Source of the DNA: an uncultured Bacilli bacterium
Lineage (GTDB): Bacteria > Bacillota_I > Bacilli_A > RF39 > UBA660
DNA: 19,267 bases
Reading direction: 5' to 3'
Assembly (NCBI GenBank): GCA_944363805.1
Contig: CALVVH010000023.1
Location: 1-19,267, forward strand
Each line of letters starts with the position of its first letter. Position 1 is the first letter of the stretch. Both the position numbers and the translations under genes were made by a program. Below are positions 58 to 19,267 of this stretch, one piece after another. Below the pieces are notes generated by a model. It was given only the letters and a program-made list of their open reading frames with translations, was not told where the DNA came from and did not search any database.

Positions 58-1509
58 ATGAATAAGACAAATGAAAAAAAGGTACTAATATTTTCAACGA
101 TAGCAGTTGTGTTATTAATAATAGTTATGGTGGGAGCAACATATGCCTTCTTTACAGCTCAAGGAGGAGCTAGTGCTAATACCAATGTCAATGTCCAAAC
201 TAATACTACTGATAGTTTGTCATTTAGTGTAGGTAATGCTATAAGTATTACTGCTAATCAACAAAACTTTGCGCAAGGCTTAGGTAACCAAGCCGGTAGT
301 ACCACGGCAAGTGCGACATTGACGGCGAATAATGCGACGAATACTGCCACAAGAAATTATTATTTGTATTTAAATATAACAAGTAATGATTTTACTTATA
401 CAACAGATGAAGAAACAGCAGAATTAATATTAACAATAGAAGATCCAGATGGAACAGAATTACAAACACTTGGAAGTTATGAATACACATCAGTAGGAGA
501 AGTATCCGGATTTGATATAACAACAGCAAATGGCTTAATAACAATAGTGGATAATTATGAAATAACTTCAACAGGTACAGTAACCCAAGAATGGAATATA
601 ACAGTAACATTTGTTAATTTAGATAGTGACCAAGAAGAAAATACAAATAAAACATTTGAAGCAACATTGATAATCCAAGAAGACTCATATGAGGAAGAAG
701 TAACAACATTAGGAAATTTTGCAAATTATATAACAACGCAAGTTTATACAGGAACAGATGGTGAAAATGGCCTTTACTATCACGATGCTGATTTAGCAAA
801 TGGAGCACAAGATAATAGTTACAGATATAGTGGAGCAAATCCAAATAACTATGTATGCTTTGGAGCCACAGGAGCAGATTGCCAAAATGAAGATAACCAA
901 TATAGAATAATCGGAGTATTTAATAATCAAGTAAAACTAATTAAAGCAACAAACTATGGAAATTATGCTTGGAATGCTGGTGTTAATACTTGGGATGAAA
1001 GTACCAAACCGGATATATACACAACACTAAATACAACATATTATAATACACTAGAAAGTGAATGGCAAAATCTAATAGCAGAGTCTACATGGCAAGTAGG
1101 AGGAATGGTATTTAGTAATACAAATACAGCCAAACAATATTATGATGTAGAAGTAGGAACAGGACAAAGTGGGTATGAAGAAACAATGAAAATAGGCTTA
1201 ATGTATGTATCAGATTATGGATATGGAGCAAGTCCAGAAAAATGGACAACAGCATTAGCATATCCTGATGGCGAAAACTATGGAACAGATAATTGGCTAT
1301 ATTTAGGCAATGATGAATGGTTCATTTCCCGTATTACAGACAATACCGCTTATGCGTTTCGTGTGTTTTCCAGCCGCGGTGGTAGCGTGGCTCGCGGCAA
1401 TGTGAACCCTACATATGCTGTTCGCCCGTCCTTTAGTCTGACATCCACAGCTACAATTTCCAGCGGTACAGGAACAAGTACTGATCCATTTGTTTTGAAT
1501 CTTGGCTAA
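58..1509 (+). CDS. DGR variable target protein: membrane-anchored surface protein with C-terminal C-type-lectin-like variable domain
   Basis: This 483-residue protein is the diversified product of the DGR. A hydrophobic segment at about residues 9-31 ending in GATYAFFTAQ looks like the signal/anchor of TasA/camelysin-like surface proteins. Residues about 35-220 are Thr/Asn/Ser-rich and probably beta-sandwich. Residues about 225-480 (starting near YRIIGVFNNQVKLIKA) form the terminal domain, inferred to be the CLec/formylglycine-enzyme-like fold used by DGR targets. Residues 423-457 are encoded by the VR. Fourteen residues there differ from the template reading, for example N426I, N432Y, N437F, N440R and N451P. 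About 26 invariant residues follow, ending PFVLNLG. The start has an AAGGAG site 10-11 nt upstream; the ATG at 50 is out of frame and stops at once. The ligand is unknown. The anchor suggests display on the outer face of the membrane. The fold is assigned from context and general pattern; the diversification comes directly from the VR/TR comparison. Confidence 0.85.
   Translation: MNKTNEKKVLIFSTIAVVLLIIVMVGATYAFFTAQGGASANTNVNVQTNTTDSLSFSVGNAISITANQQNFAQGLGNQAGSTTASATLTANNATNTATRNYYLYLNITSNDFTYTTDEETAELILTIEDPDGTELQTLGSYEYTSVGEVSGFDITTANGLITIVDNYEITSTGTVTQEWNITVTFVNLDSDQEENTNKTFEATLIIQEDSYEEEVTTLGNFANYITTQVYTGTDGENGLYYHDADLANGAQDNSYRYSGANPNNYVCFGATGADCQNEDNQYRIIGVFNNQVKLIKATNYGNYAWNAGVNTWDESTKPDIYTTLNTTYYNTLESEWQNLIAESTWQVGGMVFSNTNTAKQYYDVEVGTGQSGYEETMKIGLMYVSDYGYGASPEKWTTALAYPDGENYGTDNWLYLGNDEWFISRITDNTAYAFRVFSSRGGSVARGNVNPTYAVRPSFSLTSTATISSGTGTSTDPFVLNLG
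1324..1428 (+). repeat. DGR variable region (VR)
   Basis: This 105-bp, 35-codon segment aligns without gaps to the TR at 1706-1810. Differences are 19 at template A positions (A to C, G or T) and 2 elsewhere (T to G in codon 13, G to A in codon 30). Ten of 13 template AAY codons are altered, giving Ile, Tyr, Phe, Ser, Arg, Ala and Pro. The 3' end, TGCTGTTCGCC, contains no adenine and is identical in both repeats, as expected for the initiation-of-mutagenic-homing end. Similarity stops right after CGCC(C/A)G. The segment is visibly more GC-rich than the surrounding gene. Confidence 0.95.
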
Positions 1510-1515
1510 GCAAAT

Positions 1516-1548
1516 GCTTGTCTACGCGCCGTACGGTGCGAGGCAAGC
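1516..1548 (+). other. GC-rich hairpin downstream of the target gene and VR
   Basis: GCTTGTCT...AGGCAAGC continues inward to GCGCC-GTAC-GGTGC, giving about 14 pairs with one bulged A and two G-U pairs around a GTAC loop. It starts 7 nt after the target stop codon and about 88 nt after the VR. It could be a terminator of the target gene, since ACTTTTTG follows about 8 nt later, or a target-site cruciform of the kind that assists VR recognition in other DGRs. It shares sequence with the hairpin at 1609-1640. Confidence 0.6.
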
Positions 1549-1608
1549 GGGGCATACTTTTTGCTATGAGTGATAAAGGTTGATAAAATAGATTGATGAA
1601 AATTAAAA

Positions 1609-1640
1609 GCCGTGTCTGCACCGTAAGGTGCAGGTGTGGC
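1609..1640 (+). other. 14-bp hairpin with GTAA tetraloop upstream of the TR
   Basis: The arms 1609-1622 and 1627-1640 pair over all 14 positions, with four G-U pairs in RNA, around a GTAA (GNRA-type) loop. No T-run follows, so it is not a classical terminator. It resembles the hairpin at 1516-1548 (both contain TGTCT, then a CCGTA-containing apex, then GGTGC and AGG). It lies 65 nt upstream of the TR and could be part of the template RNA or a copy of the post-VR hairpin. Confidence 0.6.
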
Positions 1641-1705
1641 ATCGCGAAAAATAAATGTCAAATTAAAAAATTTTTGCTTATTTTTATAGGGTAATCTTGT
1701 GATAA

Positions 1706-1810
1706 ATTTCCCGTAATACAGACAATACCGATAATGCGTTTATTGTGAATTCCAACAACGGTGGTAACGTGAATAACGACAATGTGAACAATACGAATGC
1801 TGTTCGCCAG
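1706..1810 (+). repeat. DGR template repeat (TR)
   Basis: This 105-bp non-coding template lies between the target gene and the DGR operon. Read in the VR frame it is loaded with Asn codons: 13 AAT/AAC of 35 codons plus three Asp codons. AAY codons can yield many amino acids but no stop when only adenines mutate. A TAA follows two codons after the repeat. Its RNA would be copied by the reverse transcriptase with adenine-directed errors and the cDNA installed at the VR. I found no convincing promoter just upstream, so it may be read through from the target gene. Confidence 0.94.
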
Positions 1811-1967
1811 AGCCCTTAACAGTTCTAGAGTTATAAGATTAAGGTTTTATAAAGGATGAGGTTAAGGACAAAGATTATCCTTGGGAAACCCCTAAATAAG
1901 AAATATAGATGGAAGTGTATACGTACACTTCCTATACACTATATTAATTTAAGAAAGGATAAGCAAA
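1811..1967 (+). ncRNA. TR-proximal spacer, likely 3' part of the template RNA, with a UACG hairpin
   Basis: There are 157 bp between the TR and the first operon gene and no ORF. In studied DGRs the RNA just 3' of the TR is needed for cDNA priming, and the length here is similar to that spacer. The clearest structure is a perfect 9-bp stem (GGAAGTGTA / TACACTTCC, 1911-1932) capped by TACG, a UNCG-type tetraloop. A weaker AAGGA...TCCTT pairing lies near 1864-1882. An AAAGGA ribosome site precedes the ATG at 1968. The functional role is inferred. Confidence 0.5.
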
Positions 1968-2324
1968 ATGAAGAAATATTTAAAATTATATAAAAATGGT
2001 AAATTTTATAATGCCTTTGGTGATGATGGAATAATTATCCATTATTTACTTGGCTATAAATATCTAGAATATAAAAATTCAGTAGGATTTCCTGTAAGTG
2101 CCTATAACAAAGTTATAGGTAGATTACGTAAGATGGAAATTCCTTTTTTAATATATGATAAGGATATATTAATAGAAAAAGATGATGGAATAAGTAAGAA
2201 ATATAATGAAGTATTAAAGATAGCTTTAAGCAAGTATGATATGGAAAAAAGAGTAAATAGGATAATTGAAAAAATAGATAATTATACAATTCAAGAACTA
2301 GAGGATAAGTTTATAAATGAATGA
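1968..2324 (+). CDS. DGR accessory protein resembling MutS domain I (MSL-type)
   Basis: This 118-residue protein is first in the DGR operon. Residues 10-65 read like the N-terminal mismatch-recognition domain of MutS: GKFYNAFGDDG matches the GDFYExFxxDA region, then LLGY, then VGFPVSAYNKVIGRLRKMEIPFLIY matches the MutS GxPxHAxxxYLxxLxxxGxxVAI segment. The wedge Phe of the MutS F-x-E motif is present (F13), but the Glu is Asn (N15). MutS connector, lever, clamp and ATPase domains are all absent; the rest is a short charged helical tail. MutS-like (MSL) proteins are a reported class of DGR accessory gene. The ORF has an AAAGGA ribosome site and overlaps the next gene by 8 nt. A role in tolerating or detecting TR/VR mismatches is inference. 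Confidence 0.7.
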   Translation: MKKYLKLYKNGKFYNAFGDDGIIIHYLLGYKYLEYKNSVGFPVSAYNKVIGRLRKMEIPFLIYDKDILIEKDDGISKKYNEVLKIALSKYDMEKRVNRIIEKIDNYTIQELEDKFINE

Positions 2325-2655
2325 TAAATTTTTAATAATAAAGTATCTTAAGAAATTTATTATTAGTATAGAAGCTATTATAATGACTTTTCCCAAGAAA
2401 GATATAATAAGTAGGAATATGATATATAATGACTTATTAGAAGTATTAGAACTTATAATAATGGCTAATTATGAAGCAAATAAAGATGTTAAACATAATT
2501 ATCAAATTAAAGCAATTGCTAAAATAAATAAGATAGATTTTTATTTAGAAAGAGCATATAAATTAAAGTATATTAGTGAAAAACAAGTAATAAATAAAAG
2601 TAATGAATTACTTAAAATTAATAAGATGTTATATAAGTGGTGTAGTAATGGATAA
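2317..2655 (+). CDS. avd: Avd-like DGR accessory protein (four-helix bundle)
   Basis: The 112-residue, Lys/Ile/Leu-rich, wholly helical protein matches the Avd/bAvd pattern: a first helix ending at FPKK, then a helix with LLEVLELIIMANYEAN, then a helix with KINKIDFYLERAYKLKYISEKQ, then a terminal helix ending KMLYKWCSNG. Avd forms a positively charged pentamer that binds the reverse transcriptase and template RNA and is required for cDNA synthesis and mutagenic retrohoming in the Bordetella phage DGR. Its ATG lies 8 nt inside the upstream gene, with GAGG about 12 nt before it, and its own end overlaps the reverse transcriptase start by 8 nt. This suggests coupled translation and fixed stoichiometry. 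Length and order (just before the RT) are typical. Confidence 0.85.
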   Translation: MNDKFLIIKYLKKFIISIEAIIMTFPKKDIISRNMIYNDLLEVLELIIMANYEANKDVKHNYQIKAIAKINKIDFYLERAYKLKYISEKQVINKSNELLKINKMLYKWCSNG

Positions 2656-3709
2656 TATAACTATTAGTAATTTATTAAGTATATATGATAAAGAAATAAG
2701 TAAGAATGTTAAGAATAAGAGAAAATTATATAATTTTGATGTAAATAAAATGCAAAATATTAGTAATATTAAAAGAATGTTAGAAAGTGGCAATGTTGGA
2801 CACGATAAATATAATATATTTTTAATATATGAACCTAAGTGTCGATTAGTAATGTCATTAAGTATTAGAGATAAAATAATTAATCATTATGTAACTAAGT
2901 ATATATTAGAAAATAAATTAACTAAGTATTTAGATGATAGAAATGTTGCAACTAGAAAGAATATGGGAACTGATTATGGAATTAGGTTAGTTAAGAAATA
3001 TTTGATTAAGTTAAAAAGTAAATGTAAGAAGTTTTATATACTTAAACTTGATATAAGTAAGTATTTTTATAATATTGATCATAAAGTATTATTAAATATG
3101 TTAGCTGATAAATTAGATAGTAAAGAATATGAATTGATTAAAAGTATCATAGATAGTACTAATAGAGAGTATATTAATGTAAGAATAAATAATATTAAAG
3201 GTAGTAGAGATTTACCATTATATGAATATGGTAAAGGTATTCCAATAGGTAATATGACTAGTCAGTTTTTAGCGATATATTATTTAAGTAAGTTAGATTA
3301 CTATATAATACATAATTTACATTTGAAGTACTATGTAAGGTATATGGATGACTTTGTAATAATGAGTGAAGATAAAAAGTATTTAGAAGAATGTAAGAGG
3401 GTAATTATTGATAAATTAAAAATAGAATATAAGTTAGATATTAATAAGAATAAAAGTAATATAGTTAGTTCTAAAGGTGGATTTAACTTTTTAGGATATG
3501 TATTTAAAGTAACAGATGATAAATTGATTATAACGCTTAGAAAATGTAATAGGGAGAAAATTAAGAAGAAAGTTAGGAAAGTAAGTTATTTAGTAAATAA
3601 TAATAAACTAAGTTATTATAAAGCATTTTGTACTATTATGAATTATAAATATGGATTTAAGTATGTAAATAATCTTAAAGTAAGTAGGATAATAGATAAG
3701 TATTTATGA
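2648..3709 (+). CDS. DGR reverse transcriptase
   Basis: With the ATG at 2648 the protein has 353 residues. An in-frame ATG at 2603 would add 15 residues wholly inside avd, so the later start is preferred; it overlaps avd by 8 nt. Visible motifs are LKLDISKYFYNIDHK with catalytic D135, GIPIGNMTSQ at 197-206 (the DGR form ending SQ, where most group II intron and retroviral enzymes have QGxxxSP), YVRYMDDFVIM with Y232-M233-D234-D235, and GGFNFLGYVFK after it. There is no maturase, endonuclease or RNase H domain, as usual for DGR enzymes. It should copy the TR RNA and misincorporate opposite adenines. The C-terminal thumb region is Lys-rich. The stop overlaps the next start as ATGA. Confidence 0.95.
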   Translation: MDNITISNLLSIYDKEISKNVKNKRKLYNFDVNKMQNISNIKRMLESGNVGHDKYNIFLIYEPKCRLVMSLSIRDKIINHYVTKYILENKLTKYLDDRNVATRKNMGTDYGIRLVKKYLIKLKSKCKKFYILKLDISKYFYNIDHKVLLNMLADKLDSKEYELIKSIIDSTNREYINVRINNIKGSRDLPLYEYGKGIPIGNMTSQFLAIYYLSKLDYYIIHNLHLKYYVRYMDDFVIMSEDKKYLEECKRVIIDKLKIEYKLDINKNKSNIVSSKGGFNFLGYVFKVTDDKLIITLRKCNREKIKKKVRKVSYLVNNNKLSYYKAFCTIMNYKYGFKYVNNLKVSRIIDKYL

Positions 3710-17301: not shown

Positions 17302-17327
17302 AAATTTTATAAATTTTACTAATTTAA

Positions 17328-17376
17328 AAATTTGCAGACCTTTTTTTGCAAATTTTTTCTTTTATTTGCAAAAAAA
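17328..17376. repeat. Cluster of GCAAA inverted repeats upstream of the DUF1016 genes
   Basis: AAATTTGC (17328-17335) and GCAAATTT (17348-17355) form an inverted pair with a 12-nt gap. A perfect 12-bp inverted repeat (17341-17352 with 17365-17376; TTTGCAAA at the inner ends) overlaps it. It may be an operator or just AT-rich structure. The remainder of the 17302-17485 gap holds only the candidate promoter and ribosome site. Confidence 0.5.
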
Positions 17377-17485: not shown

Positions 17486-18322
17486 ATGAATTATTATAAA
17501 GAAATAAAAAATGAATTAATAAATAATGAAATAACAAAAAAAGCAAAAGATTATAGTAAGAATAGGAGTGACTTAACTACATATTATAATGTTGGTAAGT
17601 TACTTAGTGAAGCAGGTAACCATTATGGCGAAGGTATTATCAAAGATTATTCCGTAAAATTAACTAAAGAATTAGGAAAAGGCTATGGATTATCTAATTT
17701 AAAAAGAATGCGGCAATTTTATTGGTTAGTTGAAAAAGGTGTGGCGATGCCACACCAATTAAGTTGGTCACATGTTTTAGTATTGTTGCCTCTTAAAGAT
17801 AAAGATAAAATTAATTATTATGTAAAATTGACCGAAAATTTAAATTTATCTTATAGAGACCTTTCCAAAAGAATAAAAAATAAAGAATATGAAAGATTAG
17901 ATGAAGCTACTAAAGAAAAATTAATTACTAAAGAAGAAACTATATTAGTTGATTTTATCAAAAATCCTATAGTTATTAAGAATAATACTGATAGAGAAAT
18001 AATATCGGAAAAAATGTTACAAAAGATCATTATGGAAGATTTACCATCATTTTTAAAAGAACTAGGAAACGGTTTTACTTTTGTAGAAAATGAATACAAA
18101 ATAAAAATAGGTAATACTTATAATTATATTGATTTATTACTTTATAATATTAAATTTAATTGTTATGTTGTAGTAGAACTTAAAGTAATTGAATTAAAAA
18201 AGGAACATATTGGCCAAATAGAAGTATATATGAATTATATAGATAAGAATCTAAGAAAAGTAACGCAAGATAAAACAATTGGAATTATTATATGTAAGAA
18301 AGATAATAATGGAGTACTGTAG
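17486..18322 (+). CDS. DUF1016 / YhcG-like PD-(D/E)XK nuclease, C-terminus frameshifted
   Basis: The 278-residue product has the DUF1016 N-terminal helical domain (about 1-135; YYNVGKLLSEAG, LSWSHVLVLLPLKD, RIKNKEYERLDE) and a C-terminal PD-(D/E)XK nuclease domain (about 140-275). The nuclease motif appears as the Asp in YNYIDLLLYN and ExK in VVVELKVIELKKEHIGQIEVYMNYID. The family is common in accessory and defence regions and is thought to act on DNA; the exact role is unsettled. The frame ends TIGIIICKKDNNGVL, short of the family end. A natural ending (EYCSDFRILSKEYKLV, stop at 18360-18362) continues in another frame, so a small indel near 18311-18317 has trimmed about 16 residues beyond the catalytic core. 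A perfect palindrome lies inside the gene at 17738-17756. A paralogue follows. Confidence 0.85.
   Translation: MNYYKEIKNELINNEITKKAKDYSKNRSDLTTYYNVGKLLSEAGNHYGEGIIKDYSVKLTKELGKGYGLSNLKRMRQFYWLVEKGVAMPHQLSWSHVLVLLPLKDKDKINYYVKLTENLNLSYRDLSKRIKNKEYERLDEATKEKLITKEETILVDFIKNPIVIKNNTDREIISEKMLQKIIMEDLPSFLKELGNGFTFVENEYKIKIGNTYNYIDLLLYNIKFNCYVVVELKVIELKKEHIGQIEVYMNYIDKNLRKVTQDKTIGIIICKKDNNGVL
17738..17756. repeat. Perfect palindrome inside the first DUF1016 gene
   Basis: GGTGTGGC-GAT-GCCACACC has 8-bp arms and is centred at 17747, 18 nt before the TGG codon of LSWSH. It is far more GC-rich than its surroundings and encodes GVAMPH with codons (GTG, GCG, CAC) unusual for this genome. Confidence 0.85.
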
Positions 18323-18371
18323 TGATTTTAGAATACTTAGTAAAGAATATAAACTAGTTTAGGGGGTACAA

Positions 18372-18791
18372 ATGAACTATTATAAGAAAATAAAAAATGA
18401 ATTAATAAATAACGAAATAACTAAAAGAGTAAAAGATTATAGTAAAAATAGAAGTGATTTAACAACTTATTATAATGTTGGTAAATTACTAAGCGAAGCG
18501 GGAAAACATTATGGCGAAAGTGTTATTAAGGAATATTCTGAAAAGTTAACTAAAGAACTTGGAAAAAAATATTCTTATAGATCACTAAATTACATGTTAA
18601 AATTTTATAATTTTCAAAATTTGCAGTCAATAACTGCAAATTTGGCATGGGGACATTGGATTGAATTACTTTCAATTAAAGATGTAAATAAGTTAAAATA
18701 TTATATAAAACAATGCGAAAAGCTGTTATTAACAACTAGACAATTGCGTGAACGAATAAAAAATAAAGAATATGAAAGATTAGGTGATTGA
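18372..18791 (+). CDS. Second DUF1016 N-terminal domain gene, truncated by an IS element
   Basis: This 139-residue product is a tandem paralogue of the gene at 17486. The first 70 codons are nearly the same protein (YYK-IKNELINNEITK, YSKNRSDLTTYYNVGKLLSEAG), then they diverge around FYNFQNLQSITANLAWGHW and converge again at RIKNKEYERL. Right after that shared point the sequence departs and stops at GD. This coincides with the end of an IS1595-like element, so the nuclease domain has been lost or lies beyond the insertion. GGGGGT precedes the ATG. The remnant keeps only the helical domain and may be non-functional or a binding-only fragment. It contains the palindrome at 18617-18643. Confidence 0.8.
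   Translation: MNYYKKIKNELINNEITKRVKDYSKNRSDLTTYYNVGKLLSEAGKHYGESVIKEYSEKLTKELGKKYSYRSLNYMLKFYNFQNLQSITANLAWGHWIELLSIKDVNKLKYYIKQCEKLLLTTRQLRERIKNKEYERLGD
18617..18643. repeat. Perfect palindrome inside the second DUF1016 gene
   Basis: AAATTTGCAGT-CAATA-ACTGCAAATTT has 11-bp arms and is centred at 18630, again exactly 18 nt before the TGG codon (of LAWGH). The sequence is unrelated to the palindrome in the first gene. Its AAATTTGC/GCAAATTT outer halves recur at 17328-17355. Confidence 0.88.
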
Positions 18792-19267
18792 TATATTCAG
18801 CATAAGCAATATTTAAATCAATAGGCATTTGAACCGAAAAAAATTGCATTAGACTTAATATAATTATCATTTATAATTATATTAGAATAAGATTCTGTTT
18901 TAATTTTATTTAACATGAATCTTTTTTTCATTGTAAATATATATACAAACCAATTTAAGTATTTTTGTAAATGTCTAGTGGAAATTCCTCTAAATTTTTT
19001 TAACCAAGTTTCCAGTTGAGAATGAATGCCATTTATTTCTGATATATTATATATACCATCAATATGAAAACCATATGGTATAGCATTTAATATAAGATTA
19101 TTTTCTTCGCAAAAATCTTGATATGCACTAGCACTATCTGCAATGATTGATTTTGCATTATTTAACTTTTTTTCCTAATGAATCTTTTAACATTTCAGTT
19201 GTGCATCTGCCTAAACCAACAATTTTTAATAATAAATTATCGAATTCATCAATGCTTGAAACAACAC
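18783..19267 (-). mobile_element. IS1595-family (ISXO2-like) insertion sequence, partial
   Basis: The element enters at about 18783, where similarity between the DUF1016 paralogues breaks. Its outer end reads GGTGATTG, close to the GG-N-G-N-TG start of IS1595-family terminal repeats. It runs past the window end, so the other terminal repeat and any target duplication are not visible. Confidence 0.6.
18818..19267 (-). pseudogene. IS1595-family transposase, C-terminal part, frameshifted
   Basis: On the minus strand the window enters a transposase in one frame (SIDEFDNLLLKIVGLGRC, then TEMLKDSLG) and must change frame at a run of seven A (19173-19167). It then continues KLNNAKSIIADSASAYQDF and on to a typical ISXO2-like ending, ISEINGIHSQLETWLKKFRG, HLQKYLNWFVYIF, with the stop at 18820-18818. 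The catalytic Asp in IIADSASAY and the NGxHSxLxxWL block mark the IS1595 family. Read literally, the first frame stops at GKKVK just after the A-run. One A fewer would restore the gene, so this is either a decayed copy or a homopolymer error. Confidence 0.8.

Follow-up and report, generated by a model that had tools for sequence, protein, structure and literature searches.

The window analyzed here is a 19,267-nucleotide stretch of DNA from an uncultured Bacilli bacterium (contig CALVVH010000023.1), and it contains two neighboring genes of the DUF1016/YhcG family that each carry a palindrome in frame at the same codon. The best overall explanation, which we consider probable, is that each DUF1016/YhcG gene holds in frame, usually at one codon, the double-stranded DNA site of its own protein. 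The site itself, its position and generality, its symmetry as double-stranded DNA, its covariation with the protein and the domain architecture are direct observations on the sequences.

Gene 1 has both family domains, DUF1016_N (PF17761, 86.9 bits, cut-off 32.8) and YhcG_C (PF06250, 115.4 bits, cut-off 32.5), while gene 2 is without the nuclease half, DUF1016_N being its sole Pfam domain. The two proteins are identical at 88 of 140 aligned positions (63%). Palindrome 1 has arms of 8 bp (17738-17745 and 17749-17756) with 3 nt between them, palindrome 2 arms of 11 bp (18617-18627 and 18633-18643) with 5 nt between them, and in both the innermost pairs stand outside the symmetry. Each center lies 18 nt 5' of a TGG; it falls four codons ahead of the leucine of an L[S/A]W motif, at codon position 1. 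A first-pass annotation, made from the sequence alone, had reported the two centers at this distance and the unlike arms within conserved proteins, and both observations hold. By themselves the two sites prove little, since the whole window has 8 odd-centered sites that pair at 8 or more of 9 positions; their significance comes from the family.

Fixed-position symmetry beyond codon usage

We compiled a Bacilli set from the window and related Bacilli, in which 356 DUF1016_N domain matches were reduced to 252 unique genes (29 were lost for want of the anchor column or an open reading frame (ORF) end, and 75 were duplicates). At least 8 of 10 pairs were found at this center in 206 of the 252 genes, but in only 0-2% of them at each of 90 other offsets (-45 to +45). 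Synonymous codons were then resampled from the usage of genes with similar GC content at third codon positions (310 of 326 genes; 16 were too near the ORF end). The mean number of pairs was 7.58 of 9, against 4.01 expected, with p<=1/200 in 228 of the 310 genes, and the genes outside the Bacilli set gave p<=0.05 in 37 of 52 cases. In the nearest genome (G001, about 1.1 Mb), which has 11 DUF1016_N matches, 6 of 9 distinct LxWxH copies have an inverted repeat of at least 7 bp on the same base, mostly with different sequences.

The same codon stands out far from Bacilli. Sixteen named records were examined, from Pseudomonadota, Bacteroidota, Actinomycetota, Fusobacteriota, Acidobacteriota, Cyanobacteriota, Spirochaetota, Deinococcota and Wolbachia phage WO. 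In 13 of them this codon holds the best palindrome among all centers at codon position 1 (about 190 codons); the exceptions are Leptolyngbya, shifted by two codons, and E. coli and Cupriavidus, which have longer loops and several sites. Tested singly, 11 of the 16 records reached p<=0.05, and Thiospirochaeta (0.056), Granulicella, Deinococcus, E. coli and Ilyobacter did not; in a per-gene maximum test, E. coli K-12 yhcG gave p 0.27 despite its three sites. An excess over codon-preserving shuffles, whose absence had been set beforehand as the refuting outcome, is present in these tests. The palindrome at a fixed codon is real and general, and occurs in records of eight phyla besides Bacilli.

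Sites of this form consist of an A/T-rich flank, some seven variable pairs and, in most cases, a C-R-N-Y-G core. AATT forms the right flank in 167 of 228 Bacilli-set genes and in 31 of 36 others, and the left flank is AAAA or AATT. Arms are highly diverse, with 157 different 9-nt arms among 264 genes, and some genes have two or three palindrome copies with a common core. The anchoring leucine codon is TTG in 14 of 15 genes with a GC content above 0.5, in which TTG otherwise accounts for 117 of 698 leucine codons; this bias argues that the flank is likewise held at the DNA level. Synonymous codons at this position of the gene are under strong selection.

Symmetry of double-stranded DNA rather than RNA

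Third codon bases pair with second bases in these palindromes, because the center is at codon position 1. In genes picked for symmetry (314 of 326, with at least 6 of 9 pairs), a choice that inflates the Watson-Crick count and treats G.T and A.C alike, pairs k2-k8 comprised 1387 Watson-Crick pairs against 437 expected, 13 sense G.T pairs against 203, 49 A.C pairs against 324 and 30 other mismatches against 514. G.T is as depleted as the other mismatches, and A.C somewhat less so than G.T (observed/expected 0.15 versus 0.06). G.T is excluded even though an RNA hairpin would tolerate G.U, which places selection on the two-fold symmetry of the DNA duplex, the kind of symmetry that a dimer reads. 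An RNA or single-strand hairpin in the mRNA would fit inverted repeats at a conserved position, but it was rejected by this wobble test, and since the arms also covary with protein residues (see below) we give it almost no weight.

Covariation of the arms with predicted reading helices

The bases of the arms covary with amino acids whose codons lie beyond the palindrome, namely those of a predicted recognition helix, which maps to k5-k9, and of two further helices, which map to k3-k4. In a model alignment these three helices match the parS-reading helices of ParB and Noc, and positions +3 and +6 from the leucine align with ParB G201 and R204 (ParB numbering as assigned in this analysis). Rules learned on the Bacilli set predicted the arms of 23 other genes with 114 of 183 calls right, versus 71 with permuted arms. 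The rule set comprised 11 of 17 feature sets; five two-column combinations and two off-diagonal controls were left out, with one two-column set kept.

From the fixed-position symmetry of double-stranded DNA, the covariation of arms and helices, and the transfer of the rules, we infer that the palindrome is the site of the gene's own product, which very probably binds it as a dimer. The suggestion of a DNA address to which the gene's own product binds thereby gains strong, if indirect, support, from three helices and from rules that carry beyond the Bacilli set.

It had also been suggested that the palindrome might be an exchangeable specificity cassette, and this stands only in part. Among 119 proteins the reader region (-26 to +36 about the leucine) correlates at 0.45 with either flank, versus 0.91 between the flanks, and is in that sense semi-independent. 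Two genes of one array (G023:C4) illustrate this, with a diverged reader (0.49) between flanks that remain alike (N flank 0.88, C flank 0.92). Against exchange, there were no pairs among the 119 proteins with a reader region at least 90% identical and a C flank at most 75% identical. The exchangeable unit would be reader and site together and not the palindrome alone.

Sites elsewhere in the genomes and tandem arrays

We searched 30 members of the genus for two arm types, allowing up to two mismatches. The first type occurred once in each of 7 genomes, always inside a DUF1016 gene, and the second at 8 places in 7 genomes, of which 5 are in DUF1016 genes and 1 is intergenic, adjoining an array (G020). 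Taken together, 12 of 15 places are inside DUF1016 genes, so that for the two arm types searched the own gene is the main genomic address. Two palindromes lie away from the listed DUF1016 matches; the one at G023:C123:3042 differs from a DUF1016 arm type at one position, and the one at G018:C12:9156 at two.

Matching palindromes elsewhere were also sought. When loci were scanned with their own arms, extra sites exceeded those found with swapped arms at each threshold (28 versus 19.4 at >=14/18, 13 versus 4.0 at >=15/18, and 7 versus 1.1 at >=16/18), and 4 of the 7 sites at the strictest threshold are further in-frame copies within the same gene. Palindromes of the family form also lie outside the domain (21 of 227, versus 1 in the whole block-shuffled control), but their arms are mostly unlike those of the nearest gene.

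Plasmids and viral contigs also carry DUF1016 genes, and in genomes of about 1 Mb the genes form tandem arrays with as many as seven members (L040 in G023:C4, L041-L044 in G020, L048 in G003 and L052 in G014), with 20 DUF1016 matches in G020. The array of G023:C4 has seven copies, and the arms of the five compared were all different. For viral contigs, an alignment search returned 45 loci, whereas single-protein queries returned 0 or 7 relatives; on one viral contig (L290:126-150) a family-form palindrome lies about 50 nt after a frame that resembles, by eye, a DUF1016 C-terminus. Elsewhere a DUF1016 gene is directly 3' of parA-parB (L330, Moraxella plasmid), overlaps a DNA methyltransferase gene (L331, Deinococcus) or overlaps an integrase gene (L229, Klebsiella plasmid).

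Relation to ParB, Noc and other systems

ParB/Spo0J with parS and Noc with its NBS sites appear to be the closest known systems: each has a helix-turn-helix domain with three DNA-reading helices on a palindrome, and in the alignment several reading positions coincide with those predicted here. From residue 1 onward the model can be aligned to ParB's DNA-binding domain, and at E<=0.1 gene 1 has 6 Pfam matches in all, none of them a ParB CTPase domain. DUF1016 proteins differ from ParB and Noc in having a fused nuclease instead of the CTPase domain. Their site is intragenic, at a fixed codon, and diversified; the arms, mostly with a CRNYG core, do not follow the parS or NBS consensus. The DUF1016 system behaves like a ParB-parS pair packed into a single gene, yet its protein is not a ParB, because it has a nuclease in place of the CTPase domain. 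In B. subtilis, a parS is located inside spo0J. A weak motif search of 17 short loci with parS-like sites recognized no parB-like ORF, and the site was in another ORF in 3; one locus of the nearest genome (L329, G001:C26) has seven parS-like sites within about 750 bp.

The YhcG_C half is a predicted PD-(D/E)XK nuclease, with catalytic columns E175, D216, E231 (E or D) and K233 each kept in 73 of 73 aligned proteins. Compared with NucS/EndoMS, the DUF1016 DNA-binding domain is different, and no evidence of mismatch repair was found. Gene 1 matches PADLOC models of the candidate system PDC-S02 (best 1e-61) and would by this profile belong to that anti-phage defense candidate.

A regulatory site within coding sequence is also known from the intragenic operators of autoregulated genes, such as lacO2; these are single-gene cases, whereas the DUF1016 site is family-wide and has a coevolving reader. 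Homing endonuclease genes disrupt their site by their presence, while the DUF1016 site is intact inside the gene. Rickettsia palindromic elements also lie within coding genes (PMC4316617), but they are repeated selfish elements in many genes, unlike the gene-specific DUF1016 palindromes. A 2005 study predicted YhcG to be a nuclease, gave its N domain as unknown and, in the portion accessible, mentions no DNA site (PMC1189080). We found no description of an intragenic palindrome in DUF1016/YhcG in the literature searched, part of it seen as excerpts and with subscription papers and preprints outside its scope, and the terms DUF1016 and YhcG are absent from the main text of a PNAS 2025 survey of the ParB-CTPase fold. 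For a widespread family, the analysis predicts a DNA target specific to each gene and supplies both a fold for the N domain and a residue-to-base code; the family also offers a large natural series of reader-site pairs for studying how DNA-binding specificity evolves.

Possible functions of the site

In the mechanism we propose, the N domain would be a ParB/Noc-type helix-turn-helix reader that binds the palindrome as a dimer, its recognition helix reading k5-k9 and the two following helices k3-k4, with the A/T-rich flanks outside, and the C domain would be a PD-(D/E)XK nuclease of the NucS type. Paralogs would diversify reader and site jointly, and this joint diversification would address each protein to its own gene. 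Bound protein could act as a transcription roadblock on its own gene (autorepression) and could hold the nuclease at or near that gene, the site being an operator complete in itself and carried along with the ORF. That the effect in cis is autorepression, or gating and restraint of the nuclease, is a conjecture to which we give slightly less than an even chance; we favor it because the site travels inside the ORF, copies are added within or beside the gene, and diverging specificities insulate paralogs. With more reserve, we suggest a self-addressed nuclease, with the own gene as main strong site, in which the bound dimer might regulate, mark or cut its own gene and an incoming copy of the same allele, and competition between elements might drive new reader-site pairs. 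If true, this would define a class of elements with reader and address in one coding sequence.

The E. coli yhcG loci bear on the alternatives. K-12 yhcG has three tandem palindromes in a loop, 39 nt apart; across 8 E. coli loci the number is 3, 2 or 1, with none in a 69-nt remnant of the gene. Seven of the 8 loci, the one with the 69-nt remnant included, have a further palindrome whose center is 28 nt past the yhcG stop, and another is centered 28 nt after the stop of the upstream gltD in 2 of 8. Those at L237:6983, L240:2218 and L240:3772 have the yhcG core and lie exactly 28 nt after gltD and yhcG stops. Palindromes after these stops might also act as terminators. Two broken alleles (L240 and L241) have their junction at the third palindrome, with IS1 at nt 385 in one and nt 406 adjoining a transposase gene in the other, and a third allele is joined to IS629 at nt 235, away from that palindrome. 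In the E. coli yhcG listing, the match is limited to nt 1-406 in 10 of 60 rows.

One alternative is that the product not only binds but also cuts its site, and that cleavage of self or kin drives recombination and array turnover or excludes elements of the same allele. The invariant catalytic residues, the location of the genes on plasmids, in viral contigs and in arrays, the rarity of sites elsewhere in the genome, and the varying palindrome number and junctions in E. coli would all fit. Ungated self-cleavage should, however, destroy the gene, two junctions among 8 loci are anecdotal, and the IS629 allele breaks elsewhere; we regard this alternative as unlikely. Another is that the palindrome is a parS-like nucleation or marking site for DNA maintenance and not for gene regulation. 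The ParB/Noc-type reader and the site kept after the yhcG stop, even beside the remnant, are in its favor, as is the synthetic lethality of a yhcG deletion with dnaB, dnaN and parE hypomorphs, reported in PMC2672614. Against it are the missing CTPase domain, the presence of parA-parB beside the gene in one listed neighborhood only (the Moraxella plasmid) and the diversity of the sites, which do not resemble one centromere; the post-stop site could moreover serve as a terminator hairpin. We consider maintenance quite improbable. We give very little weight, too, to protein-coding mobile palindromes of the Rickettsia kind, or a mutational process perfecting quasi-palindromes, which would suit the varying copy number in E. 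coli but hardly the many arms at a single position, predictable from the reader helix and, for the two types searched, found mainly inside DUF1016 genes.

Other features of the window

Coordinates are collected in Table 1. In the nearest genome a relative of gene 2 is present at full length and has the same palindrome. An AT-rich segment at 17326-17357 has half-sites resembling palindrome 2 with another spacing, and we do not claim it as a site. Downstream of gene 2 (18792-19267) there are only short ORFs, some of them interrupted by the window end.

Table 1. Features of the window, in window coordinates.
Feature	Position	Strand	Basis or remark
Gene 1, full DUF1016/YhcG protein, 278 aa (DUF1016_N + YhcG_C PD-(D/E)XK nuclease, predicted)	17486..18322	+	Pfam
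Gene 1 codons, residues 68-77, start of predicted recognition helix (H69-83)	17687..17716	+	covary with arm k5-k9
AAAA, left flank of palindrome 1	17734-17737	.	sequence
Palindrome 1, GGTGTGGC-GAT-GCCACACC, center 17747	17738..17756	.	sequence; in gene 1
AATT, right flank of palindrome 1	17757..17760	.	sequence
Gene 1 codons, residues 95-99 (+3..+7), predicted second reading helix (H94-100)	17768..17782	+	covary with k3-k4
Gene 1 codons, residues 123-127 (+31, +35), predicted third reading helix (H123-131)	17852..17866	+	covary with k3-k4
Gene 1 codons, residues 157-275, YhcG_C nuclease domain (predicted), NucS/EndoMS-like	17954..18310	+
Gene 2, paralog, DUF1016_N domain only, 139 aa	18372..18791	+	Pfam DUF1016_N 82.7 bits
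Gene 2 codons, residues 68-77, equivalent recognition-helix segment	18573..18602	+	alignment with gene 1
Palindrome 2, AAATTTGCAGT-CAATA-ACTGCAAATTT, center 18630	18617..18643	.	sequence; in gene 2
Retroelement target gene	58-1509		variable repeat 1324-1426
Retroelement template repeat	1706-1808		81% alike to variable repeat
Retroelement reverse transcriptase	2603-3709		RVT_1 E 1.5e-20

At its other end (58-3709) the window contains a diversity-generating retroelement, in which 18 of 20 differences between the variable and template repeats are at template adenines.
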